Source of the DNA: a virus
Strand: one strand, 5' to 3'
Length of the DNA: 64,000 nt
IMG/VR virus record: IMGVR_UViG_3300009161_000031
Span: 1 to 64,000 of that record
Shown: piece after piece, positions 41,800 through 53,321 of the stretch
Numbering within the stretch: the first letter of the stretch is position 1
Layout of the letters: each line of letters opens with the position of its first letter
Position numbers and translations under genes: made by a program
Notes under the pieces: model-generated
The model's input: only the letters and a program-made list of their open reading frames with translations
Told to the model about the DNA's origin: nothing
Databases searched by the model: none

Positions 41800-41842
41800 G
41801 CTGGCGTGCCAAAATCGCCGGAGGCGATTTTGGCACGCCAGC
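41800..41842. repeat. Clamp hairpin B
   Basis: GCTGGCGTGCCAAAATCGCC, loop GGA, perfect 20-bp complement. First member of the intercassette hairpin family. Confidence 0.9.
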
Positions 41843-41858
41843 CCTGAAGCGGACGCGT

Positions 41859-41887
41859 CAAGGGGAGGGGCCGTCGCCCCTCCCCTA
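41859..41887 (-). terminator. GC-rich terminator
   Basis: GGGGAGGGGC/GCCCCTCCCC after the stop of the 88-aa gene at 41968; followed on the - strand by TTGACG. Confidence 0.6.
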
Positions 41888-41967
41888 TTCGCCGCAGACC
41901 TTCGGTGCCTGCCTTCCCTTCGGGTCGGGGGCTTGTTCCCCTACCCGCTACTAGTAACCATCGCAGG

Positions 41968-42234
41968 CTAGGCTCTCACCCGTACTTGGGCGAAACCCTC
42001 GGGCGAGAAGTCTACGCGGCACTCTCCCGCTTGAACCTCCGCCCAATGCTTGCGAATGGTTGCGGACACCGTAGGCCGGTCGCTTTTGGCGACAGCGCCG
42101 AATGTCCCCTTGAGGGCTACGCCTTGCTTGGGGGTAACCTTCGCAAGAGTCTCAAGAAGTTCTACAATAAGAACCTTCTTACGACCTCGTGGGGAAACCT
42201 GTACGGAATCCGCTGAAATGAACTCATCGTTCAT
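41968..42234 (-). CDS. Triplicated 88-aa family, copy 1
   Basis: Start ATG chosen by alignment with two paralogues (43042, 44662). Common core: VQVSPRGRKK ... LL-TL-VT-QGVALKGTFG, VAKSDRPTV-ATIRKHW and ECR-DFSPEG-AQVR-R. The SPRGRKK and TIRKHW parts suggest DNA binding. No known family. Own promoter (42317-42345). Confidence 0.85.
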   Translation of the reverse strand: MNDEFISADSVQVSPRGRKKVLIVELLETLAKVTPKQGVALKGTFGAVAKSDRPTVSATIRKHWAEVQAGECRVDFSPEGFAQVRVRA

Positions 42235-42316
42235 TTGTCTAATCACCTCCCGTCTTGAGCCGTTGCTCTTAGTGTTTCGAAGAATCCGAACTTTACCGGA
42301 TTACCTGACAAAGAAC

Positions 42317-42345
42317 AGACTACCGGCCTAGAGCTATTGAGTCCA
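42317..42345 (-). promoter_or_regulatory. Array promoter 1
   Basis: - strand TGGACT, 17 bp, TAGTCT. Drives the 41968 gene. AT-rich tract upstream. Confidence 0.7.
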
Positions 42346-42420
42346 CTTCTGCTCATTCTTTTATTTTTATTCTCAATAACTAACCTACTAAAAAAGCCTC
42401 ATTATTTGACACCACTAGAT

Positions 42421-42463
42421 GCTGTCGTGCCAGGATCGCCTGCGGCGATTTTGGCACGACAGC
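42421..42463. repeat. Clamp hairpin C
   Basis: GCTGTCGTGCCAGGATCGCC with 3-nt loop and complement (one mismatch). Differs from B by a compensated G-C to T-A change in the clamp. Confidence 0.88.
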
Positions 42464-42507
42464 CCACTCCGTAGCCTCGGGGGTTTCCCCCCGAGGATTT
42501 GCGGAAC

Positions 42508-42717
42508 TTAGACGTACTGCTTCTCACATAGGCAGCATTTGTCGTTGTAGTAAAAATCTGATTCCTTGCGCTGTTTGATGGTCTGCCTGCGAACGATTAG
42601 GGGTATGTAACTACCGCCTTTGGCTCGGGGGTCATTGTGAAAACAGTCGTGACAGACTAAGCCGTTACCGCCTAGGCGATGAACAAAATAACAGCCTTTG
42701 AGTTTTGGAGAAGTCAT
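42508..42717 (-). CDS. Zinc-finger protein (69 aa)
   Basis: AAAGG before the ATG. CHDC (~22-25) and CCLCEKQY near the end form a treble-clef-like pair; basic linker with RRQTIKQRK. Similar to small HNH-like proteins but lacking the His motif. Driven by array promoter 2. Confidence 0.75.
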   Translation of the reverse strand: MTSPKLKGCYFVHRLGGNGLVCHDCFHNDPRAKGGSYIPLIVRRQTIKQRKESDFYYNDKCCLCEKQYV

Positions 42718-42756
42718 TATGAGCCTTTCGGACTAGGGGACTTGATTACATACTGA

Positions 42757-42785
42757 AATCTACTAGCTAACGGCCTGCGAGTCAA
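42757..42785 (-). promoter_or_regulatory. Array promoter 2
   Basis: TTGACT, 17 bp (CGCAGGCCGTTAGCTAG), TAGATT on the - strand, with an AT-rich tract upstream. Confidence 0.85.
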
Positions 42786-42835
42786 GCCTTAGCGAGTATT
42801 TATTCTATTTATTTATTTATCTAACCCCAAGCAAT

Positions 42836-42876
42836 GCTGGCGCTCCAAATCGCCGGAGGCGATTTGGAGCGCCAGC
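42836..42876. repeat. Clamp hairpin D
   Basis: GCTGGCGCTCCAAATCGCC, loop GGA, perfect 19-bp complement. Identical 41-bp copies at 43992, 44566 and 45545. Confidence 0.92.
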
Positions 42877-42888
42877 CCCGAGCGCGAC

Positions 42889-42920
42889 AAGGCCCGCTCT
42901 GAGGGGGCAGAGCGGGCCTT
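42889..42920 (-). terminator. Terminator hairpin
   Basis: AAGGCCCGCTCT/AGAGCGGGCCTT, perfect 12 bp, near-copy at 45598. Confidence 0.65.
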
Positions 42921-43041
42921 GAGCTAGAGTAATTCGGGGGAGAGGTTCGCACCTCTCCCCCTACGGCTGCGGCTATCGGGATTGCCGCTGGCACCTCGCA
43001 CCCCGTAGCAAGCGGGGGGCGCTACTGATACGATTCATCCG

Positions 43042-43308
43042 CTAGCGGATACGCACCTGCGCGTATCCCTCCGGTGAGAAATCAATACGGCATTCGCCGC
43101 TTTGTATAACGCACCAGTGCTTCCGAATCGTTGCTGCTACCGTCGGGCGGTCACTCTTGGCGACTACTCCAAAGGTTCCCTTAAGCGCAACACCCTGCTC
43201 GGGTGTGACGTTCGAGAGAGTGTCAAGCAAATCCTGAATAAGAATTTTCTTGCGCCCTCGCGGGGATACCTGTACGGCATCAGCAGGTAGAAATTCATCT
43301 GCTGGCAT
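43042..43308 (-). CDS. Triplicated 88-aa family, copy 2
   Basis: ATG with GAGG 9 nt upstream; protein starts MPADEFLPADAVQVSPRGRKK and keeps every conserved block of the family. Roughly four fifths of residues are shared with copies 1 and 3 by eye. Monocistronic, promoter 43384-43412. Confidence 0.87.
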   Translation of the reverse strand: MPADEFLPADAVQVSPRGRKKILIQDLLDTLSNVTPEQGVALKGTFGVVAKSDRPTVAATIRKHWCVIQSGECRIDFSPEGYAQVRIR

Positions 43309-43383
43309 AATAATCACCTCGATTCTTGGGCCGTTGCCCGATAGTTACGATGGGAACCTTGCCGTTCCCTGCTGACAAAGACC

Positions 43384-43412
43384 AAACTAATCGCGATGCC
43401 GTTCCCAGTCAA
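43384..43412 (-). promoter_or_regulatory. Array promoter 3
   Basis: TTGACT, 17 bp, TAGTTT on the - strand. Confidence 0.82.
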
Positions 43413-43492: not shown

Positions 43493-43530
43493 CGGGCGTG
43501 CCTTTTTGCGAGAGCAAAAAGGCACGCCCG
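43493..43530. repeat. Clamp hairpin E
   Basis: CGGGCGTGCCTTTTTGC, loop GAGA, perfect 17-bp complement; preceded by CTTGACA. Same arms with another loop at 45109. Confidence 0.9.
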
Positions 43531-43580: not shown

Positions 43581-43871
43581 TTAGGCGAAATCCTCGGGGG
43601 TGATGGAGTCCCAATCCATTGCGTCTACGACTTCCTCGGGGCTAATCCCGAGGAGTTCGGTCACCTCTAGGTGACTAACGCCTAAATCTAGCGCTCGGGC
43701 GATAATGGCGGGGCCGAGAGCGTCAAAGGCGCGTGACATAAGAAGCACACCCGTTATGGCGTGACGGATAGAGTCGGGGTCGCCATTGACGACCAACTCG
43801 TGAAGGTTAAACATTGCCTGTACGCTTACCTCTAGCGTTTCTGTTAGTAGATTACGCTCTTGCTCGTTCAT
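43581..43871 (-). CDS. Hypothetical 96-aa helical protein
   Basis: GAGAGG before the ATG. All-helical: TETLEVSVQAMFNLHELVV ... IIARALDLGVSHLEVTELLGISPEEVVDAM; the last part reads like a short helix-turn-helix. Acidic end. Own promoter. Unknown family. Confidence 0.75.
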   Translation of the reverse strand: MNEQERNLLTETLEVSVQAMFNLHELVVNGDPDSIRHAITGVLLMSRAFDALGPAIIARALDLGVSHLEVTELLGISPEEVVDAMDWDSITPEDFA

Positions 43872-43912: not shown

Positions 43913-43941
43913 AAACTACTAGCTATTGGCCTGCGAGTCAA
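43913..43941 (-). promoter_or_regulatory. Array promoter 4
   Basis: TTGACT, 17 bp (CGCAGGCCAATAGCTAG), TAGTTT, AT-rich upstream tract. Confidence 0.87.
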
Positions 43942-43991: not shown

Positions 43992-44032
43992 GCTGGCGCT
44001 CCAAATCGCCGGAGGCGATTTGGAGCGCCAGC
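43992..44032. repeat. Clamp hairpin F (identical to D)
   Basis: Exact copy of the 41-bp hairpin at 42836. Confidence 0.92.
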
Positions 44033-44089: not shown

Positions 44090-44446
44090 TTAGTTATCCA
44101 GCCCCTTAAACGTGCGTTCGATGTCTCGGATTGTCTGCGCTGCCCACGCATAGGCGAGTCCCTGTAACTCGTCTGCGATAGGCTCCCCCACTAGAAGGCA
44201 GAGAGCGATTCTCAAGCCCTCTTGCTCTCCCTCTATTTTTAGGGCTTCGGCATTGTGCGGGTAGTTAAATGCGTCTAGGCGTAACTCGCTTATTCCTAGT
44301 CGAATGGCTATGGCCTCAACAGCCGATTTGAGGTCTTTAACCCTTTCCATTATCGGATAATGGAAACCTGCCTGATAGTGAAAAAAGTTAAAGATCGCGT
44401 CTTTAAGTTTTTTTTCGTATGCTTCTGCGCTAGTCGCGATGTCCAT
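44090..44446 (-). CDS. Hypothetical 118-aa helical protein
   Basis: AAAGG before the ATG. Long helices with EAYEKKLKDAIFNFFHYQAGF at the start and AWAAQTIRDIERTFKGLDN at the end; no Cys-rich or catalytic motif. Own promoter 44487-44515. Confidence 0.75.
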   Translation of the reverse strand: MDIATSAEAYEKKLKDAIFNFFHYQAGFHYPIMERVKDLKSAVEAIAIRLGISELRLDAFNYPHNAEALKIEGEQEGLRIALCLLVGEPIADELQGLAYAWAAQTIRDIERTFKGLDN

Positions 44447-44486: not shown

Positions 44487-44515
44487 AAACTACCAGCTCA
44501 CGGCCTGCGAGTCAA
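44487..44515 (-). promoter_or_regulatory. Array promoter 5
   Basis: TTGACT, 17 bp (CGCAGGCCGTGAGCTGG), TAGTTT. Confidence 0.86.
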
Positions 44516-44565: not shown

Positions 44566-44606
44566 GCTGGCGCTCCAAATCGCCGGAGGCGATTTGGAGC
44601 GCCAGC
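44566..44606. repeat. Clamp hairpin G (identical to D)
   Basis: Third exact copy of the 41-bp hairpin. Confidence 0.92.
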
Positions 44607-44661: not shown

Positions 44662-44928
44662 TTAGCGGATTCTTACCTGAGCGTATCCCTCAGGCGAAAA
44701 GTCAATACGGCACTCTGAAGCCTGAACCTCGCTCCAATGCTTGCGGATAGTCGCCGCAACCGTTGGCCGGTCAGACTTAGCAACCTCACCGAACGTACCT
44801 TTGAGAGATACGCCTTGCTTTGCGGTTACTTTCTTTAGTGTTGCGAGTAGGTCGGGGATTAGGATTTTCTTTCGACCTCGGGGCGATACCTGAACATCGC
44901 TAGCGTCAATAAACTCATCTACGGGCAT
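44662..44928 (-). CDS. Triplicated 88-aa family, copy 3
   Basis: ATG with AAAGGAAA upstream; begins MPVDEFIDASDVQVSPRGRKK. Retains KSDRPTVAATIRKHW and DFSPEGYAQVRIR. Between the copies at 43042 and 44662 lie two unrelated genes, so the copies spread as cassettes, not as a simple tandem. Confidence 0.87.
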   Translation of the reverse strand: MPVDEFIDASDVQVSPRGRKKILIPDLLATLKKVTAKQGVSLKGTFGEVAKSDRPTVAATIRKHWSEVQASECRIDFSPEGYAQVRIR

Positions 44929-44989: not shown

Positions 44990-45018
44990 AATCTACTCCT
45001 CCCTACTAAGTGAGTCAA
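44990..45018 (-). promoter_or_regulatory. Array promoter 6
   Basis: TTGACT, 17 bp, TAGATT. An inverted repeat CTTAGTAGG (44944) / CCTACTAAG (45001) spans the leader and spacer. Confidence 0.82.
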
Positions 45019-45108: not shown

Positions 45109-45151
45109 CGGGCGTGCCTTTTTGCGAGGAACGAGCAAAAAGGCACGCCCG
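45109..45151. repeat. Clamp hairpin H
   Basis: Same 17-bp arms as hairpin E but with the 9-nt loop GAGGAACGA. Confidence 0.9.
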
Positions 45152-45198: not shown

Positions 45199-45426
45199 CT
45201 AGATAATCACGCCCTCCATCAGGTTTACCAACGCATCAGCCGTAGTTACCGGAGCGTAGCCGTAGGCAATAGCGGCGATTATTTCTCTATCGCCATTTTT
45301 TGCGGCGACTCTTAGAACGTGAGAGATAATGGCGACGACATTAGAGTCATTGCTTATCTTATGGGCGATAGAATCGGTGCGATTTATTAGAGCGCTTCTT
45401 ATGGCTTGAGTTTGTTCAGGATTCAC
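45199..45426 (-). CDS. Hypothetical 75-aa protein
   Basis: GTG start with AAAGG upstream. Helical, rich in Ala and Ile (IAHKISNDSNVVAIISHVLRVAA). Pattern resembles the 73-aa gene at 53073 in length and helix content. Unknown. Confidence 0.72.
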   Translation of the reverse strand: MNPEQTQAIRSALINRTDSIAHKISNDSNVVAIISHVLRVAAKNGDREIIAAIAYGYAPVTTADALVNLMEGVII

Positions 45427-45465: not shown

Positions 45466-45494
45466 AAACTACCAGCTATTGGCCTACGAGTCAA
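45466..45494 (-). promoter_or_regulatory. Array promoter 7
   Basis: TTGACT, 17 bp (CGTAGGCCAATAGCTGG), TAGTTT. Confidence 0.86.
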
Positions 45495-45544: not shown

Positions 45545-45585
45545 GCTGGCGCTCCAAATCGCCGGAGGCGATTTGGAGCGCCAGC
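45545..45585. repeat. Clamp hairpin I (identical to D)
   Basis: Fourth exact copy of the 41-bp hairpin. Confidence 0.92.
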
Positions 45586-45712: not shown

Positions 45713-45853
45713 CTAGAAGTTGAGAGACTCAATCCACGCTGCGACAATCGGCAGGACTATGAACGCCGAGATGCCGAGCAGATACGGGAAGACCTGCCTC
45801 CACCTATCTTGGAGACTAAAGAATACCTCTACGCTATCGAAACGACGGTTCAT
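45713..45853 (-). CDS. Membrane protein (46 aa)
   Basis: ATG overlaps the stop of the upstream gene by 1 nt. Polar N-terminus (NRRFDSVEVFFSLQDRWRQ) followed by one membrane helix (VFPYLLGISAFIVLPIVAAW). With its neighbour it forms the only two-gene cassette, probably a membrane pair. Confidence 0.68.
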   Translation of the reverse strand: MNRRFDSVEVFFSLQDRWRQVFPYLLGISAFIVLPIVAAWIESLNF

Positions 45854-46038
45854 CAGATTACCTTTCCGATTAGTGTGATGACTAGAGCGCCTAGACCTAT
45901 TAGGGCTAGGAATCCTAGCGTTATTAGGGTCACGCCGAGTAGCCCTGCGGCCACCTCTGCGAAACTATCTTCGCGAACATTCTTGAACCACACGTTAGAT
46001 AGTTTCATAGTTTTCCTTTGCTCGGGGTTGGTTTCCAT
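45853..46038 (-). CDS. Membrane protein (61 or 51 aa)
   Basis: Two possible starts: the ATG at 46038, placed exactly 7 nt after the -10 box (leaderless), and an in-frame ATG at 46008 with AAAGGAAA. The C-terminal half is a long hydrophobic hairpin (AAGLLGVTLITLGFLALIGLGALVITLIG). Likely inserted in the host membrane. Confidence 0.75.
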   Translation of the reverse strand: METNPEQRKTMKLSNVWFKNVREDSFAEVAAGLLGVTLITLGFLALIGLGALVITLIGKVI

Positions 46039-46044
46039 AGTTAG

Positions 46045-46073
46045 AAACTACTAGCTGATGGCCTGCGAGTCAA
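46045..46073 (-). promoter_or_regulatory. Array promoter 8 (leaderless geometry)
   Basis: TTGACT, 17 bp (CGCAGGCCATCAGCTAG), TAGTTT; the box ends 6 nt before the ATG at 46038. Confidence 0.85.
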
Positions 46074-46123: not shown

Positions 46124-46169
46124 GCTGTCGTGCCTCACATTTATGTGAGGTGTCGTGAGGCACGACAGC
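46124..46169. repeat. Clamp hairpin J
   Basis: GCTGTCGTGCCTCAC / GTGAGGCACGACAGC with an inner stem CCTCACAT/ATGTGAGG that can form an alternative fold. Confidence 0.88.
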
Positions 46170-46234: not shown

Positions 46235-46576
46235 CTAGGCGACCTCGGGGCGGTCTTCCCGGCAGTCGTGATGCCCGCTGTAGCAAAACTCGTCGCTATC
46301 GAACTCTATAGAGTCATCGCCCTCAACGAAAATAAGCATCCCTGCGGCCATAGCCTCGTAATGCCCCTCGGGGTTCTGAATGATAGCCATGTAATCCCTG
46401 TCCGTTTGAGGGTCAAGCGCCTCAACGGCATAACCGATTAGAGCAGTTTTATCCGCCCAGTCCGCGTCCCAAAAGTTTCGAGACTCAATAAAGCGCATAA
46501 GTCTCCATTCTTTGACATCAAGTAAGCCGCCAAAGTGAAAATCTAGCAAGTGGCGAACGGTTTCGATGGTCTCCAT
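46235..46576 (-). CDS. Paralogue pair X, copy 1 (113 aa)
   Basis: AAGGGGA before the ATG. Shares ETVRHLLDFH, EW-LMR-I-RNFW-A-W, DY--I--NPEGHYEAMA-GML, and the end CREDRPE with the next cassette (46832). Acidic C-terminus. Unknown family; two related copies in a row. Confidence 0.82.
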   Translation of the reverse strand: METIETVRHLLDFHFGGLLDVKEWRLMRFIESRNFWDADWADKTALIGYAVEALDPQTDRDYMAIIQNPEGHYEAMAAGMLIFVEGDDSIEFDSDEFCYSGHHDCREDRPEVA

Positions 46577-46622: not shown

Positions 46623-46651
46623 AAACTAATCGCGTTACCTATTTGAGTCAA
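46623..46651 (-). promoter_or_regulatory. Array promoter 9
   Basis: TTGACT, 17 bp, TAGTTT. Confidence 0.84.
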
Positions 46652-46684: not shown

Positions 46685-46695
46685 CACTCTAAGTA
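46685..46695. promoter_or_regulatory. Array palindrome, copy 1
   Basis: CACTCTAAGTA, a one-base variant of the 11-bp palindrome repeated through the right half of the array. Confidence 0.6.
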
Positions 46696-46718
46696 GCCAA
46701 AAGCTATCACCACTCAAC

Positions 46719-46766
46719 GCTGGCGTGCCTCACATTTTTTTGTGAGGTGCCGTGAGGCACGCCAGC
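46719..46766. repeat. Clamp hairpin K
   Basis: GCTGGCGTGCCTCAC / GTGAGGCACGCCAGC: relative of J with compensated clamp change and inner CCTCACA/TGTGAGG. Confidence 0.88.
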
Positions 46767-46786
46767 CCGATGGGTTTCCGGGCGCG

Positions 46787-46811
46787 AAAAAGCCCCCCTT
46801 GCGGGGGGCTT
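46787..46811 (-). terminator. Intrinsic terminator
   Basis: Copy of the 46190 terminator: AGCCCCCC-GCAA-GGGGGGCT then TTTTT on the - strand. Confidence 0.82.
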
Positions 46812-46831
46812 CTGCCGACTCTCCGAGGCCG

Positions 46832-47179
46832 CTAGGCAGCCTCGGGGCGAGATTCCCGGCAGTCGTCGTGCTGGTCGATACAAAACTCATCAAGGTCGAA
46901 ATCTAAGATACCTGAGGATTCTATGTGGCTAAGCATACCGACAGCCATCGCTTCGTAGTATCCCTCGGGGTTATTCATAATGACCTGATAATCATCGGCG
47001 GTCTGAGGGTTGATAACGCTCACCGCAAAACCGATAAGCGTCATTTTGTTTTCCCAATTTGCTTCCCAAAAGTTACGAAACATAATGGCACGCATTAGTT
47101 TCCATTCATCGTGGAATGGCATAGTAAATGAATCCTGATGAAAATCTAGCAAGTGGCGAACGGTTTCGATGTTGTCCAT
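46832..47179 (-). CDS. Paralogue pair X, copy 2 (115 aa)
   Basis: AAGGGGA before the ATG. Same layout as the gene at 46235 with moderate divergence and a short insertion near residue 20. Duplicated together with its leader, terminator and hairpin class. Confidence 0.82.
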   Translation of the reverse strand: MDNIETVRHLLDFHQDSFTMPFHDEWKLMRAIMFRNFWEANWENKMTLIGFAVSVINPQTADDYQVIMNNPEGYYEAMAVGMLSHIESSGILDFDLDEFCIDQHDDCRESRPEAA

Positions 47180-47225
47180 TTTGTCCCCTTAGGTTGGGAG
47201 TGCCGGTTGCGCTCCAACAAGGACA

Positions 47226-47254
47226 AAACTAATCGCGTTTCGGTTTTGAGTCAA
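47226..47254 (-). promoter_or_regulatory. Array promoter 10
   Basis: TTGACT, 17 bp, TAGTTT. Confidence 0.84.
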
Positions 47255-47287
47255 CTTCTGCTAACGATTTGAGCAAAAGAATAGGTT

Positions 47288-47298
47288 CACTCTAAGTG
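47288..47298. promoter_or_regulatory. Array palindrome, copy 2
   Basis: CACTCTAAGTG followed by GCC. Confidence 0.65.
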
Positions 47299-47321
47299 GC
47301 CACCAGCTACCACCAGACCCA

Positions 47322-47367
47322 GCGGGCGCACGCTACGAGGAACGAGTAGCGGGCAGCGTGCGCCCGC
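47322..47367. repeat. Clamp hairpin L
   Basis: GCGGGCGCACGCT / AGCGTGCGCCCGC around GCTAC ... GTAGC, a nested stem. Two near-identical copies follow at 47876 and 48334. Confidence 0.9.
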
Positions 47368-47380
47368 CCCCGAGGGGGAG

Positions 47381-47410
47381 TCACGGAGAGTGGTTGCCCA
47401 CCCTCCGTGA
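47381..47410 (-). terminator. GC-rich hairpin after the 101-aa gene
   Basis: TCACGGAG ... CTCCGTGA with GTGG/CCAC inside; no U-tract. Close copies at 47934 and 48393. Confidence 0.5.
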
Positions 47411-47422
47411 CCCGACCGGCCC

Positions 47423-47728
47423 CTACAGGTAGTCGTGGGCGATGTTGCGGATTATGTCGTTTACCCAACGGTCGGGCCAATCGAGGTAATCCTGAGACTC
47501 TGCGAATACGTCCACCGCATTGGCAAATGTGGTCACGCCTACGATAGCGTGCGGGAATCCCATACGGACTAAGGATAGGCTCTGAGTCCATTCCATAGAG
47601 TCTAGGGCTAGGATAAGGGGCATTAGGGCATCTATTGAGTGAACAGATCGCGCCTCGCCGCTGGCGTGAGCCTCAATGAGGCTAAGGCGTAGCGCCTTGC
47701 CCTCTGCGTCTAGTGAGTAATTCGGCAT
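47423..47728 (-). CDS. Hypothetical 101-aa protein
   Basis: AAAGG before the ATG. Starts MPNYS like several right-half cassettes. Helical; WPDRWVNDIIRNIAHDYL at the end. Own promoter, unknown family. Confidence 0.75.
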   Translation of the reverse strand: MPNYSLDAEGKALRLSLIEAHASGEARSVHSIDALMPLILALDSMEWTQSLSLVRMGFPHAIVGVTTFANAVDVFAESQDYLDWPDRWVNDIIRNIAHDYL

Positions 47729-47779
47729 AATCGTGGAACCTTTCAGGTGAGGTGCGCCGGTTGCGCTCCAACAAGGACA

Positions 47780-47808
47780 AACCTACTAGCGTTCCGAATC
47801 TGAGTCAA
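47780..47808 (-). promoter_or_regulatory. Array promoter 11
   Basis: TTGACT, 17 bp, TAGGTT. Confidence 0.83.
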
Positions 47809-47841
47809 GGCGGGAGAGCAAATTGAGGAAACAATGATGTT

Positions 47842-47852
47842 CACTCTAAGTG
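47842..47852. promoter_or_regulatory. Array palindrome, copy 3
   Basis: CACTCTAAGTG followed by GCC. Confidence 0.65.
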
Positions 47853-47875
47853 GCCAAAAGCTACCACCACACTCA

Positions 47876-47921
47876 GCGGGCGCACGCTACGAGGAACGAG
47901 TAGCGGGCAGCGTGCGCCCGC
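47876..47921. repeat. Clamp hairpin M
   Basis: Same arms and centre as L. Confidence 0.9.
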
Positions 47922-47933
47922 CCCCGAGGGGGG

Positions 47934-47965
47934 GTCACGGAGAGTGGTTGCCCACTCTCCGTGAC
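47934..47965 (-). terminator. GC-rich hairpin
   Basis: GTCACGGAGAGTGG / CCACTCTCCGTGAC, perfect 14 bp. Confidence 0.55.
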
Positions 47966-47973
47966 CGGGTCGG

Positions 47974-48219
47974 TTAGAAATCGCACTCGTGGTTTACGTC
48001 GTGGTCGTCAAGGTTGGGAAGTTCGTGCCTCCACGCTTGGTAGAGAATCGCTTCCTCTAGCGCTGCTGCGCTGTAGTTTAGGATTGTGTAATCGAGCCAC
48101 TTAGCGCCCGACTCTGCGGAAATCGTGCGAGAAATCTCGCAACGAAATGCGCGAACTAATGGGGCAAGTGCCGAACGCGACGCGGTTTCGGCGGCTAGGA
48201 CTTTCTGTGTGTTGGTCAT
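47974..48219 (-). CDS. Hypothetical 81-aa protein (leaderless)
   Basis: The ATG lies 7 nt after the -10 box and has no ribosome site. Helical Ala-rich protein with Trp residues and an acidic, His-containing end (NLDDHDVNHECDF). Unknown family. Confidence 0.75.
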   Translation of the reverse strand: MTNTQKVLAAETASRSALAPLVRAFRCEISRTISAESGAKWLDYTILNYSAAALEEAILYQAWRHELPNLDDHDVNHECDF

Positions 48220-48225
48220 AAGAGA

Positions 48226-48254
48226 AATCTACCCTAGATTAGATTCTGAGTCTA
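48226..48254 (-). promoter_or_regulatory. Array promoter 12 (leaderless geometry)
   Basis: TAGACT, 17 bp, TAGATT; box ends 6 nt before the ATG. Confidence 0.8.
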
Positions 48255-48299
48255 GTTATGCGGCTAAAGATTGTCTCAAGATGTTGAGGTTAGAATACT

Positions 48300-48310
48300 C
48301 ACTCTAAGTG
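48300..48310. promoter_or_regulatory. Array palindrome, copy 4
   Basis: CACTCTAAGTG followed by GCC. Confidence 0.65.
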
Positions 48311-48333
48311 GCCAAAAGCTATCACCAGCCGTT

Positions 48334-48379
48334 GCGGGCGCACGCTACGAGGAACGAGTAGCGGGCAGCGTGCGCCCGC
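48334..48379. repeat. Clamp hairpin N
   Basis: Third copy of the L/M type. Confidence 0.9.
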
Positions 48380-48392
48380 CCCCGAGGGGGGC

Positions 48393-48420
48393 CACGGAGA
48401 GTGGTTGCCCACTCTCCGTG
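48393..48420 (-). terminator. GC-rich hairpin
   Basis: CACGGAGAGTGG / CCACTCTCCGTG. Confidence 0.55.
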
Positions 48421-48430
48421 ACCGGGTCGG

Positions 48431-48643
48431 TTACTCCTCCCAGCCGACGATGCGGTCGGGGACTTCCCAGTCCTCAACGTCGCCGTCGTCCTCGCTGCGG
48501 ACAGAGCGGGCGTAGACCTCGGGGTCATCGAAACTGAATTCGTAAACCTTGACCTCGATAGGAGCGCCCCACTGAATTCCAGAGAGGGCCGCGTCCCACT
48601 CCATTGCCAATTCGCTTGCGGTCTTGCCAGAGACGTTCGGCAT
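48431..48643 (-). CDS. Hypothetical 70-aa acidic protein
   Basis: Starts MPNVSG after a conserved leader that also holds an out-of-frame ATG 13 nt earlier. The acidic end EDDGDVEDWEVPDRIVGWEE is shared almost exactly with the gene at 49546 although the rest differs, a sign of end swapping. Unknown family. Confidence 0.78.
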   Translation of the reverse strand: MPNVSGKTASELAMEWDAALSGIQWGAPIEVKVYEFSFDDPEVYARSVRSEDDGDVEDWEVPDRIVGWEE

Positions 48644-48696
48644 CTGCCAAATCCATTCTCTCAGGGAGTCCGCCGGTTGCTCGCTCCAATAAGTAC

Positions 48697-48725
48697 AAAC
48701 TACTCGCGTTCGGAATCTGAGTCAA
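48697..48725 (-). promoter_or_regulatory. Array promoter 13
   Basis: TTGACT, 17 bp, TAGTTT. Confidence 0.84.
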
Positions 48726-48758
48726 CTTCTGCGTGCGAATTGAGGTAAAAATGATGTT

Positions 48759-48769
48759 CACTCTAAGTG
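48759..48769. promoter_or_regulatory. Array palindrome, copy 5
   Basis: CACTCTAAGTG followed by GCC. Confidence 0.65.
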
Positions 48770-48792
48770 GCCAAAAGCTATCACCACACAAC

Positions 48793-48838
48793 GCTGGCGC
48801 ACGCTACGAGGGACGAGTAGGCGGCAGCGTGCGCCAGC
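48793..48838. repeat. Clamp hairpin O
   Basis: GCTGGCGCACGCT / AGCGTGCGCCAGC: L-type centre with the GCTGGCG clamp of B/D. Copy at 49911. Confidence 0.9.
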
Positions 48839-48850
48839 CCGGGCCAAGGT

Positions 48851-48861
48851 CACTCTGAGTG
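48851..48861. promoter_or_regulatory. Array palindrome, variant 1
   Basis: CACTCTGAGTG, perfect palindrome around a central T, here after the hairpin instead of before it. Confidence 0.6.
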
Positions 48862-48911
48862 ATGAGGGGGGAGCGCCCCGACCCTTGCGGGCCGGGGCTT
48901 GACCCCTAGAC

Positions 48912-49220
48912 TCAGATTGAGAGTCTAAAGACCCTGGCTAGGTCTATGATTTCATCGCAAGCGGCTATTGCCTCGGTGCGAGGGACATCGTCGCCGCGTA
49001 GTGGGGCTAGGTCACCCAACACGCTTTGCATAGCGTGGCTGTAGGGGTTATCCATTCCCCAAATGCCGGTGGTCATGAGCACGTTGAAGATAACGTGAGC
49101 GTTCATGAACGTGCACCCCCACAATTCCTGTATCCGTTCCTTAATAAGTACGGAATTGGTGCTTACGGTTACCGCCGCATCGGTTGTCGCGGTTGCGACC
49201 TCTCCAGAGAAGTTCGGCAT
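48912..49220 (-). CDS. Paralogue pair Y, copy 1 (102 aa)
   Basis: MPNFSGEVATATTDAAVTV start, then KERIQELW and a helical body; shares start, KRI-ELW centre and length with the gene at 50028. Unknown family. Leader has the conserved out-of-frame ATG. Confidence 0.78.
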   Translation of the reverse strand: MPNFSGEVATATTDAAVTVSTNSVLIKERIQELWGCTFMNAHVIFNVLMTTGIWGMDNPYSHAMQSVLGDLAPLRGDDVPRTEAIAACDEIIDLARVFRLSI

Positions 49221-49274
49221 GTGGCCAAATCCATTCTCTCGGGGAGGGAGCCGGTTGCTCTCTCCAATAAGTAC

Positions 49275-49303
49275 AAACTACCAAACATCAGTATGCGAGT
49301 CTA
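49275..49303 (-). promoter_or_regulatory. Array promoter 14
   Basis: TAGACT, 17 bp, TAGTTT. Confidence 0.8.
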
Positions 49304-49365
49304 TTTGTGCGCCTAATTATTACCTCAAGATTAAAAAAAGAATCCAAAAAAAACCAGCTCCCGGC

Positions 49366-49394
49366 TTGACACGGGCGAGCGGGTGTGATTTGTT
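49366..49394 (+). promoter_or_regulatory. Opposing + strand promoter 1
   Basis: TTGACA, 17 bp, TTTGTT, pointing at hairpin P; palindrome starts 8 nt after the box. Confidence 0.6.
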
Positions 49395-49401
49395 CTGCGG
49401 C

Positions 49402-49412
49402 CACTCTAAGTG
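49402..49412. promoter_or_regulatory. Array palindrome, copy 6
   Basis: CACTCTAAGTG at the expected start site of the + strand promoter. Confidence 0.68.
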
Positions 49413-49436
49413 ACATTTTTTCCCATACCAGCCAAC

Positions 49437-49491
49437 GCGGGCGAGCTTAGCACACGGTAGATCGTGTGTGCGTATGGGGCGGCTCGCCCGC
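49437..49491. repeat. Clamp hairpin P
   Basis: GCGGGCGAGC / GCTCGCCCGC with inner CACACG/CGTGTG; third hairpin type. Confidence 0.88.
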
Positions 49492-49506
49492 CGAACCCCA
49501 AAGGGG

Positions 49507-49534
49507 AGGGGAGAGGCTGGAGCCTCTCCCCTTT
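49507..49534. terminator. Bidirectional terminator hairpin
   Basis: AGGGGAGAGGCT-GG-AGCCTCTCCCCT, perfect 12 bp; TTT follows on the + strand. Confidence 0.65.
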
Positions 49535-49545
49535 GCCCCCGGGAG

Positions 49546-49731
49546 TTACTCCTCCCAGCCGGTGATGCGGTCGGGGACTTCCCAGTCCTCAACATCGCCG
49601 TCATCCTCAAGCGGGAACCGGTCGGGGCTGACCGTGTGGAGGATGCTGTCCAACTGTCCGAGCGGATGCCCGAACATGTGTTCTATCAAGCCGCGTGCGT
49701 CAAACGCGGGGCTAGCAGAGAAGTTCGGCAT
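49546..49731 (-). CDS. Hypothetical 61-aa protein
   Basis: MPNFSASPAF start (pair Y style) but the acidic EDDGDVEDWEVPDRI end of the gene at 48431. A natural chimera of two cassettes. Unknown function. Confidence 0.76.
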   Translation of the reverse strand: MPNFSASPAFDARGLIEHMFGHPLGQLDSILHTVSPDRFPLEDDGDVEDWEVPDRITGWEE

Positions 49732-49785
49732 GTGGCCAAATCCATTCTCTCGGGGAGGGAGCCGGTCGCTCTCTCCAATAAGTAC

Positions 49786-49814
49786 AAACTACCAGCTAAT
49801 GGCTTGCGAGTCTA
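49786..49814 (-). promoter_or_regulatory. Array promoter 15
   Basis: TAGACT, 17 bp (CGCAAGCCATTAGCTGG), TAGTTT. Confidence 0.82.
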
Positions 49815-49866
49815 TTTCTGCGGGCTATTTCTTTGCATTATTTCTTTTTTTATTTGTGAGCAGAAC

Positions 49867-49895
49867 TTGACAGCGTACTAAACTTGTACTAGACT
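49867..49895 (+). promoter_or_regulatory. Opposing + strand promoter 2
   Basis: TTGACA, 17 bp, TAGACT, the best + strand match; points at hairpin Q. Confidence 0.65.
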
Positions 49896-49910
49896 ACCCC
49901 ACCACTCTGC

Positions 49911-49956
49911 GCTGGCGCACGCTACGAGGGACGAGTAGGCGGCAGCGTGCGCCAGC
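49911..49956. repeat. Clamp hairpin Q
   Basis: Copy of hairpin O. Confidence 0.9.
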
Positions 49957-49968
49957 CCGGGCCAATGT

Positions 49969-49979
49969 CACTCTGAGTG
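49969..49979. promoter_or_regulatory. Array palindrome, variant 2
   Basis: CACTCTGAGTG, after the hairpin as at 48851. Confidence 0.6.
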
Positions 49980-50027
49980 ATGAGGGGGGGGGGAGCGCCC
50001 CGACCCTTGCGGGCCGGGGCTTGACCC

Positions 50028-50336
50028 CTAGGCTGCGTCTACCCAATCCATCATTAGGTAAACGATTACCTCGGAGGCAATCATCGCCTCGGAGTGTGGA
50101 GTATTAGTCCGACGCAGGCCGATTAGTGAGGCCATTACTCTCTCGCCTGCGGTATGGGCCATTCCCTCGGTTGCCCAAATCATAGTGGACGATAGGGCTC
50201 CGAATACCGCTTGAGCGGTTCTTGAGTCAACATTCCACAATTCTTTGATGCGCTTAGTGATTGCTATTGAGCAAGGCGCTACGGTTACCGCCGTATCGGT
50301 TGCCGCGATTGCGACCTCTCCAGAGAAGGTAGGCAT
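50028..50336 (-). CDS. Paralogue pair Y, copy 2 (102 aa)
   Basis: MPTFSGEVAIAATDTAVTV start, ITKRIKELW centre, same length as the gene at 48912. Body diverged. Unknown family; own promoter. Confidence 0.78.
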   Translation of the reverse strand: MPTFSGEVAIAATDTAVTVAPCSIAITKRIKELWNVDSRTAQAVFGALSSTMIWATEGMAHTAGERVMASLIGLRRTNTPHSEAMIASEVIVYLMMDWVDAA

Positions 50337-50390
50337 TTGGCCAAATCCAGTCTCTCGGGGAGCGAGCCGGTTGCTCTCTCCAATAAGTAC

Positions 50391-50419
50391 AATTTACCAA
50401 ACATCAGTGAGTGAGTCTA
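50391..50419 (-). promoter_or_regulatory. Array promoter 16
   Basis: TAGACT, 17 bp, TAAATT. Confidence 0.75.
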
Positions 50420-50471
50420 TTTCTGCGCCTCATTGTTTCCTCAAGATAATAAAAGAAATCCAGCTCCCGGC

Positions 50472-50500
50472 TTGACACGCAGCCGCGGCTGTGATTTATT
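50472..50500 (+). promoter_or_regulatory. Opposing + strand promoter 3
   Basis: TTGACA, 17 bp containing the palindrome CAGCCGCGGCTG, TTTATT. Confidence 0.6.
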
Positions 50501-50507
50501 CTGCGAC

Positions 50508-50518
50508 CACTCTAAGTG
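50508..50518. promoter_or_regulatory. Array palindrome, copy 7
   Basis: CACTCTAAGTG, 7 nt after the + strand -10 box. Confidence 0.68.
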
Positions 50519-50542
50519 ACCAAAAATGCCAAACCAAGCCGA

Positions 50543-50596
50543 GCGGGCGAGCTTAGCACACGAAGAGCGTGTGTGCGTATGGGGCGGCTCGCCCGC
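50543..50596. repeat. Clamp hairpin R
   Basis: P-type arms with inner CACACG-AAGAG-CGTGTG. Confidence 0.87.
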
Positions 50597-50654
50597 CGAA
50601 CCCCAAAAGGGGAGGGGAGGGGCCGGAGCCCCCCCCCCTTGCTCCCCCGGAGGG

Positions 50655-50960
50655 TTACTCCTCGTCTCGGAAGACGGGGTACCAACGCTCACCCTCGGGG
50701 GTGACGATGAGAACATCGGCAGCCTCGGCAGCGGCGACGAGAATGTCCACCGTCGCTTCGAGTATTAGCAACTCGAAGGTTGTGGTGAACGAGGTGACCG
50801 CGTCAAGCGCCTTGTCCGTAGCCTTGAACGCGTCGGCCAACTCTTGCGCCTCGTAGCGGTTCACGTAGAACCCCTCTAGGCGTTTCGCGAGAACCGTCGC
50901 GTCGGCTACCGCGGGTGCGGTCTTGCTAAGAGAGAGAATCGGCTTCATGCCGTAGTCCAT
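50655..50960 (-). CDS. MDYGM-type cassette protein 1
   Basis: 101 residues from MDYGMKPILSLSK (an in-frame ATG four codons on is possible). Helical, Ala/Val-rich, ending GERWYPVFRDEE. Its first 14 residues match the gene at 51803, while the body does not. Unknown family. Confidence 0.76.
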   Translation of the reverse strand: MDYGMKPILSLSKTAPAVADATVLAKRLEGFYVNRYEAQELADAFKATDKALDAVTSFTTTFELLILEATVDILVAAAEAADVLIVTPEGERWYPVFRDEE

Positions 50961-51000
50961 TCTCTTGGGGAGTCCGCCGGTTGCTCGCTCCGATAAGTAC

Positions 51001-51029
51001 AAACTACCAAACACGCCTATGCGAGTCCA
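51001..51029 (-). promoter_or_regulatory. Array promoter 17
   Basis: TGGACT, 17 bp, TAGTTT. Confidence 0.8.
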
Positions 51030-51091
51030 TTTCTGCGCCTCATTTTTTCCTCAAGATAAAAAAAAGAATCAAAAAAAAACTAGCTCCCGGC

Positions 51092-51120
51092 TTGACACGC
51101 AGCCGCGGCTGTGATTTATT
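51092..51120 (+). promoter_or_regulatory. Opposing + strand promoter 4
   Basis: TTGACA, 17 bp with CAGCCGCGGCTG, TTTATT. Confidence 0.6.
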
Positions 51121-51127
51121 TTATGAC

Positions 51128-51138
51128 CACTCTAAGTG
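51128..51138. promoter_or_regulatory. Array palindrome, copy 8
   Basis: CACTCTAAGTG, same offset from the + strand promoter. Confidence 0.68.
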
Positions 51139-51162
51139 ACCAAAAATGCCAAACCAAGCCGA

Positions 51163-51214
51163 GCGGGCGATCCTAGCACACGGTAGATCGTGTGTGCTTG
51201 GGCGGCTCGCCCGC
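51163..51214. repeat. Clamp hairpin S
   Basis: GCGGGCGA / TCGCCCGC around GCACACG ... CGTGTGTGC. Confidence 0.86.
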
Positions 51215-51270
51215 GTGACCCCAAAGGGGGAGGGGAGAGGCCGGAGCCCCTCCCCTTGTTCCCGGCTCCC

Positions 51271-51480
51271 TTAGACTTCGTACCCGTGGCGGGTAAGAAT
51301 GTCCCGGGTCATTGAGACGATTGTCTCGTTGAGGGCAACCATCTCAGCCCCGAACGATTCGCCGTGAGAGCGAATGTTGATGTCAATCCCCGCATTGCGG
51401 ATTGACATTCTCAGCCGGGACTCAGCGTCGCGAACGAAGTCGCGAAGCACACTTGCCCCACTCTCGGTTATTCCGGCCAT
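51271..51480 (-). CDS. Hypothetical 69-aa protein
   Basis: ATG with AAGGAG. Helical with GASVLRDFVRDAESRLRMSIR and a basic C-terminal MTRDILTRHGYEV. Own promoter and a different leader from its neighbours. Unknown family. Confidence 0.75.
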   Translation of the reverse strand: MAGITESGASVLRDFVRDAESRLRMSIRNAGIDINIRSHGESFGAEMVALNETIVSMTRDILTRHGYEV

Positions 51481-51533
51481 AACTGTCTCCTTAGGTTCGT
51501 GGAGCGAACCGGTTGTTCCCTCCAACAAGTACT

Positions 51534-51562
51534 AACCTATCGCGTCCCCGTGTGCGAGTCCA
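51534..51562 (-). promoter_or_regulatory. Array promoter 18
   Basis: TGGACT, 17 bp, TAGGTT. Confidence 0.78.
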
Positions 51563-51624
51563 CTTCTGCGCCTAAATGTTTCCTCAAGATAAAAAAAAGA
51601 ATCGAAAAAAAACCAGCTCCCGGC

Positions 51625-51653
51625 TTGACACGGCGGCGCGCCTGTGATTTATT
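51625..51653 (+). promoter_or_regulatory. Opposing + strand promoter 5
   Basis: TTGACA, 17 bp with GGCGCGCC, TTTATT. Confidence 0.6.
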
Positions 51654-51660
51654 CTGCGGC

Positions 51661-51671
51661 CACTCTAAGTG
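51661..51671. promoter_or_regulatory. Array palindrome, copy 9
   Basis: CACTCTAAGTG. Confidence 0.68.
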
Positions 51672-51695
51672 ACATTTTTTCCGCCCCCAGTTCTC

Positions 51696-51747
51696 GCGGG
51701 CGATCCTAGCACACGGTAGATCGTGTGTGCTTGGGCGGCTCGCCCGC
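51696..51747. repeat. Clamp hairpin T
   Basis: Near-copy of S. Confidence 0.86.
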
Positions 51748-51802
51748 GTGACCCCAAAGGGGAGGGGAGGGGCCGGAGCCCCCCCCCCTTTTCCCGGGAA
51801 GT

Positions 51803-52060
51803 TTACTTTGTCCACTTAATGGCAAAGTCGATTGCCTTAGGCAACATCACTTGGATGTCGTACTCATCCTCGGTGTAGTAGTCTGTGATGAGGTACTGTA
51901 GCGCCTCACTTATGACCTCGGGGGAGAGTGTGGCAACAAACTCCATGGCCGCCTTGACGCACATGATAGGCATGTGAATCGGGTCAAGGCTAACGGCCTT
52001 GGCGTGTGCCGCGATTGCGGCCTTGCTAAGAGAGAGAATCGGCTCCATGCCGTAATCCAT
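51803..52060 (-). CDS. MDYGM-type cassette protein 2
   Basis: 85 residues, MDYGMEPILSLSKAA start as in the gene at 50655, then an unrelated helical body (FVATLSPEVISEALQYLITDYYTEDE). Indicates exchange of 5' ends among cassettes. Confidence 0.77.
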   Translation of the reverse strand: MDYGMEPILSLSKAAIAAHAKAVSLDPIHMPIMCVKAAMEFVATLSPEVISEALQYLITDYYTEDEYDIQVMLPKAIDFAIKWTK

Positions 52061-52100
52061 TCTCTAGGGGAGTCCGCCGGTTGCGTGCTCCGATAAGTAC

Positions 52101-52129
52101 AAACTACCAAACACGCGTAGGTGAGTCCA
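52101..52129 (-). promoter_or_regulatory. Array promoter 19
   Basis: TGGACT, 17 bp, TAGTTT. Confidence 0.8.
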
Positions 52130-52185
52130 CTTCTGCGCCTCATTATTACCTCAAGATAATAAAAAAAATAAATCCGGCTCCCGAC

Positions 52186-52214
52186 TTGACACGGGGCCGC
52201 GGCTGTGATTTATT
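52186..52214 (+). promoter_or_regulatory. Opposing + strand promoter 6
   Basis: TTGACA, 17 bp, TTTATT. Confidence 0.6.
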
Positions 52215-52221
52215 TCACGGC

Positions 52222-52232
52222 CACTCTAAGTG
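52222..52232. promoter_or_regulatory. Array palindrome, copy 10
   Basis: CACTCTAAGTG, flanked as GGC ... GTC. Confidence 0.68.
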
Positions 52233-52256
52233 GTCAAAAAAGCGTATCCATATTTA

Positions 52257-52306
52257 GCGGGCGATCCTAGCACACGAAGAGCGTGTGTGCTGTCCGGGCC
52301 GCCCAC
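52257..52306. repeat. Clamp hairpin U, degenerate
   Basis: Inner AGCACACG/CGTGTGTGCT is kept; the outer clamp is broken (GGGCCGCCC). End member of the series. Confidence 0.7.
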
Positions 52307-52331
52307 GTAACTGTTGTTCTGGGGGGCCGCT

Positions 52332-52441
52332 GGGCGCGGCGAGCCGCGATGTGGGGCGCGGCGAGCCGCGATGTGGGGCGCGGCGAGCCGCGATGTGGGG
52401 CGCGGCGAGCCGCGATGTGGGGCGCGGCGAGACGCGATGTG
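52332..52441. repeat. Five 22-bp tandem repeats
   Basis: Unit GGGCGCGGCGAGCCGCGATGTG, each containing the small palindrome GCGGC-GA-GCCGC; the fifth unit has one change. No coding frame is credible here. Confidence 0.9.
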
Positions 52442-52538
52442 GGGTACGTCAAGCTGACTCCAGGCCAGAACCAGGGCTCGGGCCTGGGCGCGCAGAGGGG
52501 GGAGAGGCCGGAGCCCCTCCCCCGCCTCGCCTGCGGGG

Positions 52539-52652
52539 TTATGCGATGCAGTAGATTAGGAAGCAGAGCAGCTCTGCCCTGCGCTCTTCGCTCAAGAGCG
52601 GGGTCGTGTGGTACGTGTAGTCGAGCAACATAATCAGTTCGCCGTGTGTCAT
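52539..52652 (-). CDS. Hypothetical 37-aa protein
   Basis: ATG with AAAAGGAAA upstream. MTHGELIMLLDYTYHTTPLL then an acidic-basic helix and hydrophobic end (LLCFLIYCIA). Short, but promoter 20 and the ribosome site point only at it. Confidence 0.65.
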   Translation of the reverse strand: MTHGELIMLLDYTYHTTPLLSEERRAELLCFLIYCIA

Positions 52653-52693
52653 AGTTTTCCTTTTTTCGGGGAGCCGGTTGCTCCGATAAAGAT

Positions 52694-52722
52694 AACTTAT
52701 CACCGGCCCTAGTGTGAGTCAA
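52694..52722 (-). promoter_or_regulatory. Array promoter 20
   Basis: TTGACT, 17 bp, TAAGTT, with AT-rich tract upstream. Confidence 0.8.
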
Positions 52723-52848
52723 GTTGGAGCGGGTATTTCTTTTATTTTATTTATCGGGCCGCGCTGTTGGCCGCGCTGTCGGGGTAGGTCGCGTGGTGTG
52801 TGCTGTTGTGTGAGTAGGGCAGGGCGGGTACGCCCTGCTGGCTCTGCC

Positions 52849-52940
52849 CTGGCCTGACCCAGGGTCGCGAGCTGGCCTGACCCAGGGCCGCGAGCTGGCC
52901 TGACCCAGGGCCGCGAGCTGGCCTGACCCAGGGCCGCGAG
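52849..52940. repeat. Four 23-bp tandem repeats
   Basis: Unit CTGGCCTGACCCAGGGCCGCGAG, nearly identical in all four. The apparent long frames across it are repeat artefacts. Confidence 0.9.
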
Positions 52941-53011
52941 CTGGCCGCGTCCTGGCCTACACGCGACAACGCCGCGACCCACGCTATCGGGTCGCGGTGT
53001 TCGCCTATGGC

Positions 53012-53078
53012 GGTACGATAACCCGCACCCCTTGAGACTCTCGCACTAGGCGAGAGTCTCGCGGGCTACGTGCTAGGC
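53012..53078. repeat. 67-bp duplicated terminator, copy 1
   Basis: Contains GAGACTCTCGC-ACTAG-GCGAGAGTCTC, an 11-bp stem. A near-identical copy at 53322-53388 ends the neighbouring gene. Confidence 0.8.
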
Positions 53079-53294
53079 GCTTAGGGCTATTAGTTCGGTT
53101 GCGACGTTACCGGCGTTGGCGATTGTGTGGACTAGTGCGGCCTCAAGCGCGGTAGTCTGTCCATCGGTCGCAAGCATTAGCAACATCTCGCGGATAGTCC
53201 GGTCGGCGTTGGAATGGCCAAGAATCGCCTCGGTCACTCGGCGCGTTATTTCGTCAAGCCGTATTTCTACTGCGCGGTGCTGGTGGTGATTCAT
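53073..53294 (-). CDS. Hypothetical 73-aa protein
   Basis: AAAGGGGA before the ATG. His-rich start (MNHHQHRAVEIR) and helical body. Similar in style to the 75-aa gene at 45199. No array promoter upstream; the duplicated terminator separates it from the next gene. Confidence 0.73.
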   Translation of the reverse strand: MNHHQHRAVEIRLDEITRRVTEAILGHSNADRTIREMLLMLATDGQTTALEAALVHTIANAGNVATELIALSA

Positions 53295-53321
53295 TATGTC
53301 CCCTTTGGTTGGTTGGTTGGT

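Follow-up and report, generated by a model that had tools for sequence, protein, structure and literature searches.

Terminal repeats of the NootNoot type, the length of which was compared by their describers with T5 and SPO1, carry in BE phages 20-25 small open reading frames (ORFs) including an lsr2-like gene (PMC5764925). According to its annotation, some terminal-repeat genes of SPO1 act in host shutoff or in the inhibition of cell division, and in a Listeria phage of the Herelleviridae those of the terminal repeat reach their maximum 5 min into infection (PMC12282133). Two further reports describe the PeSL cassettes of T4-type phages, which combine a promoter with a stem-loop, and a similar motif in the halovirus HGTV-1 (PMC4503421, PMC3950731). 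Here we describe an array of 20 uniform promoters, nearly all followed by one small gene, in a viral stretch of 64,000 bases (the window; bases 1-64,000 of the 101,003-bp IMG/VR record IMGVR_UViG_3300009161_000031). The array is probably an early-gene module, situated in a long direct terminal repeat, of a phage that is a distant relative of the Streptomyces Stanwilliamsviridae; it would be composed of 20 insulated units that would act early and be directed at the host. This reading rests on the array and its uniqueness, synteny, matching composition, the recurrence of one promoter per gene in three relatives, and purifying selection within two paralogue sets. From these we infer that the block is duplicated at the genome ends, that it is expressed early, that its hairpins terminate transcription and that its products serve host takeover. 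The array is known from one genome and one near-identical sister contig.

Results

The 20 promoters, found between 42,317 and 52,722, all lie on the minus strand with a spacer of exactly 17 bp in every one, and an earlier note on this DNA had read both them and their hexamers correctly. The −35 hexamer is TTGACT in 12, TGGACT in four and TAGACT in four, while the −10 hexamer is TAGTTT in 12, TAGATT in three, TAGGTT in two and TAAGTT, TAAATT and TAGTCT in one each. The search pattern T[TGA]GACT-N17-TA[AG][AGT]TT matched 19 times on the array strand, never on the opposite strand and nowhere in the rest of the 101,003-bp genome, with a mean of 0.005 matches in 200 dinucleotide shuffles; the twentieth promoter falls outside the pattern solely through its −10, TAGTCT. 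Scanning other spacers gave no match at 12-16, 18-21 or 23 bp and a single one at 22 bp. The AT-rich tract that the note placed upstream of the −35 box is real as composition, since A+T makes up 61% of the stretch from −36 to −60, compared with an array value of 45% (0 of 10,000 resamplings).

Each unit runs in the order variable upstream stretch, AT-rich tract, promoter, leader, small ORF and stable hairpins. One small gene almost always follows each promoter, as the note had it (19 of 20 units), the unit at 46,073 containing two overlapping genes; its count of more than 20 cassettes was slightly high, there being 20 promoter cassettes and two extra genes (53,073-53,673) that lack this promoter. 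The leader is usually 33-76 nt long, and in many cassettes a 5′ hairpin GGAG...CTCC can be read from the sequence as possible. Between 48600 and 52065 the leaders of genes 2 and 4-8 place the start-codon region between AGAGAA and TTCTCT arms, such that the start codon could be enclosed in a leader hairpin, and some of these leaders also have an upstream ATG that overlaps in a different frame. From upstream to downstream the features are:

53073-53673, minus: a pair of additional small genes on the upstream edge of the array, the same hairpin repeat after each, no 17-bp promoter
52694-52722, minus: promoter 1, TTGACT-N17-TAAGTT
52539-52652, minus: gene 1, 37-residue orphan (MTHGELIMLL...)
52101-52129, minus: promoter 2, TGGACT-N17-TAGTTT
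51803-52060, minus: gene 2, 85 residues, first ~17 codons common to gene 4
51534-51562, minus: promoter 3, TGGACT-N17-TAGGTT
51271-51480, minus: gene 3, 69-residue orphan
51001-51029, minus: promoter 4, TGGACT-N17-TAGTTT
50655-50960, minus: gene 4, 101 residues
50391-50419, minus: promoter 5, TAGACT-N17-TAAATT
50028-50336, minus: gene 5, 102 residues, paralogue of gene 7
49786-49814, minus: promoter 6, TAGACT-N17-TAGTTT
49546-49731, minus: gene 6, 61 residues, last 63 bp common to gene 8
49275-49303, minus: promoter 7, TAGACT-N17-TAGTTT
48912-49220, minus: gene 7, 102 residues
48697-48725, minus: promoter 8, TTGACT-N17-TAGTTT
48431-48643, minus: gene 8, 70 residues, mosaic with gene 6
48226-48254, minus: promoter 9, TAGACT-N17-TAGATT
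47974-48219, minus: gene 9, 81 residues, probably leaderless, ATG 6 nt after the −10
47780-47808, minus: promoter 10, TTGACT-N17-TAGGTT
47423-47728, minus: gene 10, 101-residue orphan
47226-47254, minus: promoter 11, TTGACT-N17-TAGTTT
46832-47179, minus: gene 11, 115 residues, 57% identity with gene 12
46623-46651, minus: promoter 12, TTGACT-N17-TAGTTT
46235-46576, minus: gene 12, 113 residues
46045-46073, minus: promoter 13, TTGACT-N17-TAGTTT
45853-46008, minus: gene 13a, small, hydrophobic and membrane-like, start assigned by Shine-Dalgarno AAAGGA, first in the sole two-gene unit
45713-45853, minus: gene 13b, 46 residues, hydrophobic
45466-45494, minus: promoter 14, TTGACT-N17-TAGTTT
45199-45426, minus: gene 14, 75-residue orphan, GTG start
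44990-45018, minus: promoter 15, TTGACT-N17-TAGATT
44662-44928, minus: gene 15, 88 residues, paralogue family A, AT-hook-like SPRGRKK
44487-44515, minus: promoter 16, TTGACT-N17-TAGTTT
44090-44446, minus: gene 16, 118-residue orphan
43913-43941, minus: promoter 17, TTGACT-N17-TAGTTT
43581-43871, minus: gene 17, 96-residue orphan
43384-43412, minus: promoter 18, TTGACT-N17-TAGTTT
43042-43308, minus: gene 18, 88 residues, paralogue family A
42757-42785, minus: promoter 19, TTGACT-N17-TAGATT
42508-42717, minus: gene 19, 69 residues, Cys/His-rich, zinc-ribbon-like
42317-42345, minus: promoter 20, TGGACT-N17-TAGTCT
41968-42234, minus: gene 20, paralogue family A

The portal protein of the phage shares 41-43% identity with its counterparts in Streptomyces Stanwilliamsviridae over more than 90% of its length, and the genome encodes DNA polymerase III alpha, DnaB, RecA and ribonucleotide reductase; the phage is a distant relative of the Stanwilliamsviridae, probably outside the described genera. 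Two WhiB-family matches over the cut-off, obtained with a model that among 14 control genomes matches Corynebacterium glutamicum alone, are the sole pointer to the host, which is probably an actinobacterium. The bins of portal relatives (a cyanobacterium, Cytophagaceae and Actinomycetota) give conflicting evidence on the host and were not used. A 109.9-kb relative, CAINGU010000031.1 (L142, L145-L150; portal 45%, polymerase 40%), lies inside a metagenome-assembled genome labelled uncultured cyanobacterium, probably through a binning error.

Gene order follows that of NootNoot, with convergent plus-strand genes preceding the minus-strand block of small genes, and with minus-strand ThyX and a lysis-like gene and then plus-strand glycosyltransferase, ribonucleotide reductase and portal genes after it. 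At the position of the array NootNoot has a direct terminal repeat, its bases 1-10,787 being repeated exactly at the right end. The guanine plus cytosine (GC) content of the block exceeds that of the core in both lineages, being mostly 52-57% versus 32-44% in the phage studied here and 56.7% versus 48% in NootNoot; GC at third codon positions (GC3) in array and core genes is 0.61 and 0.35 in the phage studied here and 0.75 and 0.47 in NootNoot. A TAGACT-like −10 occurs in 15 of 15 intergenic gaps of the terminal repeat in NootNoot, 14 of 18 in MindFlayer and 15 of 16 in MulchMansion, and adding TTG at 17-18 bp leaves 12, 10 and 13 sites, respectively, on the array strand and none on the opposite strand, while NootNoot shuffles give 0 or 1. 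The array and these BE repeats have in common their position, strand, neighbours, raised GC and GC3, and 20-odd small orphan genes with one uniform promoter per gene. They differ in the −10 hexamer (TAGTTT in the array, TAGACT in the BE repeats), in coding density (48% in the array, 73% in the NootNoot repeat) and in the duplicated and mosaic cassettes of the array, which has no detected proteins in common with them and no Lsr2-like gene, and the portals are only 41-43% identical.

The array proteins tested gave no significant match in profile searches against Pfam, PHROGs, NCBIfam and PADLOC, in keeping with the note's remark that they match no family; no relatives were found in viral contigs except the sister contig, nor in the bacterial genomes searched, and a profile search of related contigs came back empty, an answer that alone shows little. 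The proteins are likely to be real, given the low proportion of nonsynonymous (pN) relative to synonymous (pS) differences in family A and the dN/dS ratio of nonsynonymous to synonymous change of 0.2 between genes 11 and 12. Family A comprises three paralogues (genes 15, 18 and 20) with 79-80% identical proteins, in which pS is 0.79-0.90, with synonymous sites near saturation, and pN 0.14-0.16; judged by these sequence comparisons, purifying selection is acting on the two paralogue sets. The ORFs also show coding-type GC by codon position and plausible Shine-Dalgarno sites. The SPRGRKK stretch of family A reads as a putative AT-hook-like element. Structure prediction for two protein families was of low confidence (predicted local distance difference test scores of 48 and 44).

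All 20 downstream stretches fold more stably than their shuffles (z −2.9 to −10.1), with two tandem hairpins after most genes in fold models. The hairpins reported by the earlier note are therefore present, whereas its description of them as terminator-like holds less well, a long U tail being rare and the classical terminator look being confined to the hairpins after 46,235 and 46,832; transcription presumably terminates at the array hairpins. An Rfam search gave no match. A paired change (GCTGGCG/CGCCAGC versus GCTGTCG/CGACAGC) distinguishes two of the large inverted repeats, as expected from selection on pairing or from conversion between arms. The repeats are:

41800-41842: perfect 20-bp inverted repeat after gene 20
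42421-42463: intercassette inverted repeat, 20-bp arms, 90% complementary
42836-42876: intercassette inverted repeat, perfect 19-bp
43493-43530: intercassette inverted repeat, perfect 17-bp
43992-44032: intercassette inverted repeat, perfect 19-bp
44566-44606: intercassette inverted repeat, perfect 19-bp
45109-45151: intercassette inverted repeat, perfect 17-bp
45545-45585: intercassette inverted repeat, perfect 19-bp
46124-46169: 15-bp inverted repeat, paired G-C to T-A change relative to the next one
46719-46766: 15-bp inverted repeat
46695-52232, minus: 12 copies of the near-palindrome (C/T)ACT(T/C)AGAGTG, candidate operator

Around the array, a DNA methyltransferase gene lies directly upstream (54101-55108), and a DNA methylase is likewise found near the left end of the Streptomyces phage Faust, a member of the Stanwilliamsviridae. 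AT-rich iteron-like palindromes (ATTCAAAAACTTGAAT; 53913-53990) separate the array from this methyltransferase gene and are a possible origin or repeat boundary. GC-rich tandem repeats at 52332-52444 and 52849-52946 (22-bp x5.1 and 23-bp x4.3, 98% alike) stand on either side of the first promoter cassette. The segment at 23000-40000, which adjoins the 52-57% GC array, has a GC content of 29-35%, a GC3 of 0.17, a strong GC skew and two tRNA genes, Glu-TTC and Leu-TAA.

Discussion

By position and design the array appears to be a variant of the terminal-repeat module of the Stanwilliamsviridae; the lack of an Lsr2 match despite the small ORFs places it as a variant and not as the identical module. 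The same location, strand and neighbours, the rise in GC and GC3 and the promoter-per-gene design seen in the BE repeats mean that it most probably represents the early module in the terminal repeat of a new lineage, one in which repeated regulatory cassettes are unusually abundant. On DNA entry the host RNA polymerase with its housekeeping sigma factor, probably actinobacterial, would start at each near-consensus promoter, each short transcript would be translated into one small protein, and the hairpins 3′ of each gene would halt transcription before the next promoter. One such promoter per gene together with isolating hairpins would yield many comparable transcripts without a phage factor, and placement at the genome end would let these genes be read first, as are the terminal-repeat genes of the Listeria Herelleviridae phage (PMC12282133). 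In these first minutes the likeliest role of the small proteins would be to bind host machinery and redirect it, or to block defences. By analogy with those early-peaking genes and with the SPO1 repeat genes annotated for host shutoff or cell-division inhibition, host takeover is likely, although a counter-defence role would fit the proteins equally well.

The earlier note had likened the locus to the terminal redundancies of SPO1-like phages, and the comparison survives as an analogy of architecture, reinforced by synteny with the 10.8-kb NootNoot repeat, but not as common descent. Like the SPO1 module, the array groups small genes, most of them unknown, that have good sigma-70 promoters and would lie close to a genome end (SPO1 was scanned with a strict pattern, by which not all of its early promoters are counted). 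The phage family and host phylum are different, however, the closest portals being those of Stanwilliamsviridae and not Herelleviridae, and the SPO1 repeat has genes on two strands and is 77% coding, in contrast to the minus-strand array. Dozens of small genes each with a near-identical promoter also occur in an IMG/VR contig (L114, bases 1-11000; also L113 and L116), where about 32 small genes each have CTAAAGA[A/T]GTTATAATG and a GAAAGGA-type ribosome site, with 26 exact promoter copies on one strand and none on the other. No portal match to the Stanwilliamsviridae-like family was found in these contigs and their array looks to be of independent origin; being apparently unrelated, it suggests that the promoter-per-gene strategy arose more than once. 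An integron cassette array was ruled out, since each cassette here has its own promoter whereas integron cassettes are mostly promoterless with one shared promoter.

The alternative that survives best, to which we give somewhat less than an even chance, is that the array is mainly a platform for gene exchange, as proposed for PeSL, and its gene set accessory (counter-defence or host range) instead of a fixed takeover programme. Between-cassette repeats cover 74% of non-coding bases but 29% of coding bases, the latter mostly paralogues, and several unrelated ORFs have in common only the leader and first 31-57 bp, or the last 63 bp. The leader and the first 52 bp are common to genes 2 and 4, genes 5 and 7 agree over 57 bp and then diverge, and genes 6 and 8 share their last 63 bp. 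Recombination between homologous stretches of regulatory DNA, putting new ORFs behind old promoters, would be expected to leave such repeated regulatory DNA with mosaic ORF ends, and the leaders and N-termini common to unrelated ORFs suggest cassette exchange like that of PeSLs in T4-type phages. Among BE helper phages the terminal repeats are where the genomes differ most (PMC10690885), and PeSL and HGTV-1 provide precedents in which conserved promoter and stem-loop units flank unrelated small ORFs; unlike the bearers of PeSL, however, the array phage is not T4-like, and its regulatory unit is larger (~150-400 bp) with paired hairpins. The inference of exchange is drawn from one genome, the sole other copy being the sister contig IMGVR_UViG_3300027754_000235 (99.97% identity over 20.3 kb), which contains the same array and, being independent, shows that it is not an assembly artefact. 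No diverged second copy was found in the contigs searched, so that swapping between phages was not seen and the mosaic ORF ends are those of one genome; megablast and blastn found the regulatory DNA in no other phage, and the promoter pattern found only the sister contig. Candidate arrays in freshwater relatives were rejected because their repeats proved to be coding (tail-like proteins). An exchange platform could in any case coexist with early host takeover, which makes it a partial alternative only. Combining the two, we would tentatively, and against the balance of probability, picture a self-renewing arsenal of early proteins, in which terminal-repeat cassettes serve as homologous joints and new host-directed proteins slot behind a ready promoter and even a ready N-terminus, the codon composition of the block differing from that of the rest of the phage.

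Several observations weigh against a terminal-repeat module. The assembly holds a single copy of the array and is circularised, as judged by a 123-bp overlap between the ends of the record, and tblastn of the array proteins against 50,697 phage records gave no match, no isolate phage detectably sharing one; nor does the array contain a match to the Lsr2-like gene of the BE repeats. In Faust the terminal repeat is merely 772 bp and the promoter-dense segment, with 22 TTGAC promoters, lies elsewhere, on the plus strand of the right arm, which shows that the position of the module varies within the family. An equivalent opposite-strand segment is present in a related 110-kb freshwater phage, but without a comparable rise in GC and with few TTGAC promoters listed in the scan. 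The circular assembly and the short Faust repeat would agree with an internal early region in a circularly permuted or short-ended genome, a reading we consider unlikely, since in position and composition the array matches the NootNoot repeat exactly. As to the Faust promoters themselves, TTGAC-N16-19-TAnnnT occurs at 296-13900, where the plus strand has 22 sites and the minus strand a single one; many have a small gene 20-50 bp downstream, and CCCAAGCTTG-like spacers are seen in several.

It is less probable still that the array is a timed regulon, its promoters activated or repressed by a factor bound at (C/T)ACT(T/C)AGAGTG, in place of a constitutive early block. All 12 copies of this putative operator in the genome lie in the array, on the same strand and upstream of promoters; the motif is, however, absent before eight equally good promoters between 42.3 and 46.1 kb, and its distance to the −35 varies from 44 to 165 bp. 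That the ORFs are spurious and the units yield small regulatory RNAs, as the long structured non-coding DNA and the want of Pfam matches might suggest, is highly improbable given the strong purifying selection in the paralogues, the coding-type GC by codon position, the plausible Shine-Dalgarno sites and the empty Rfam search.

No description of a promoter-per-gene terminal-repeat module in Stanwilliamsviridae was found in the literature searched, and the present comparison points to such a module as a shared trait of this family and its freshwater relative. The leader-plus-N-terminus mosaics of the array argue clearly for cassette exchange beyond the T4-type phages, and the roughly 20 orphan proteins are candidate early host-takeover factors, for which culturable Streptomyces phages offer a test. 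With GC3 raised in the module of both lineages, one may ask whether the phage genes expressed first are tuned to the host at a stage when phage tRNAs have yet to appear.

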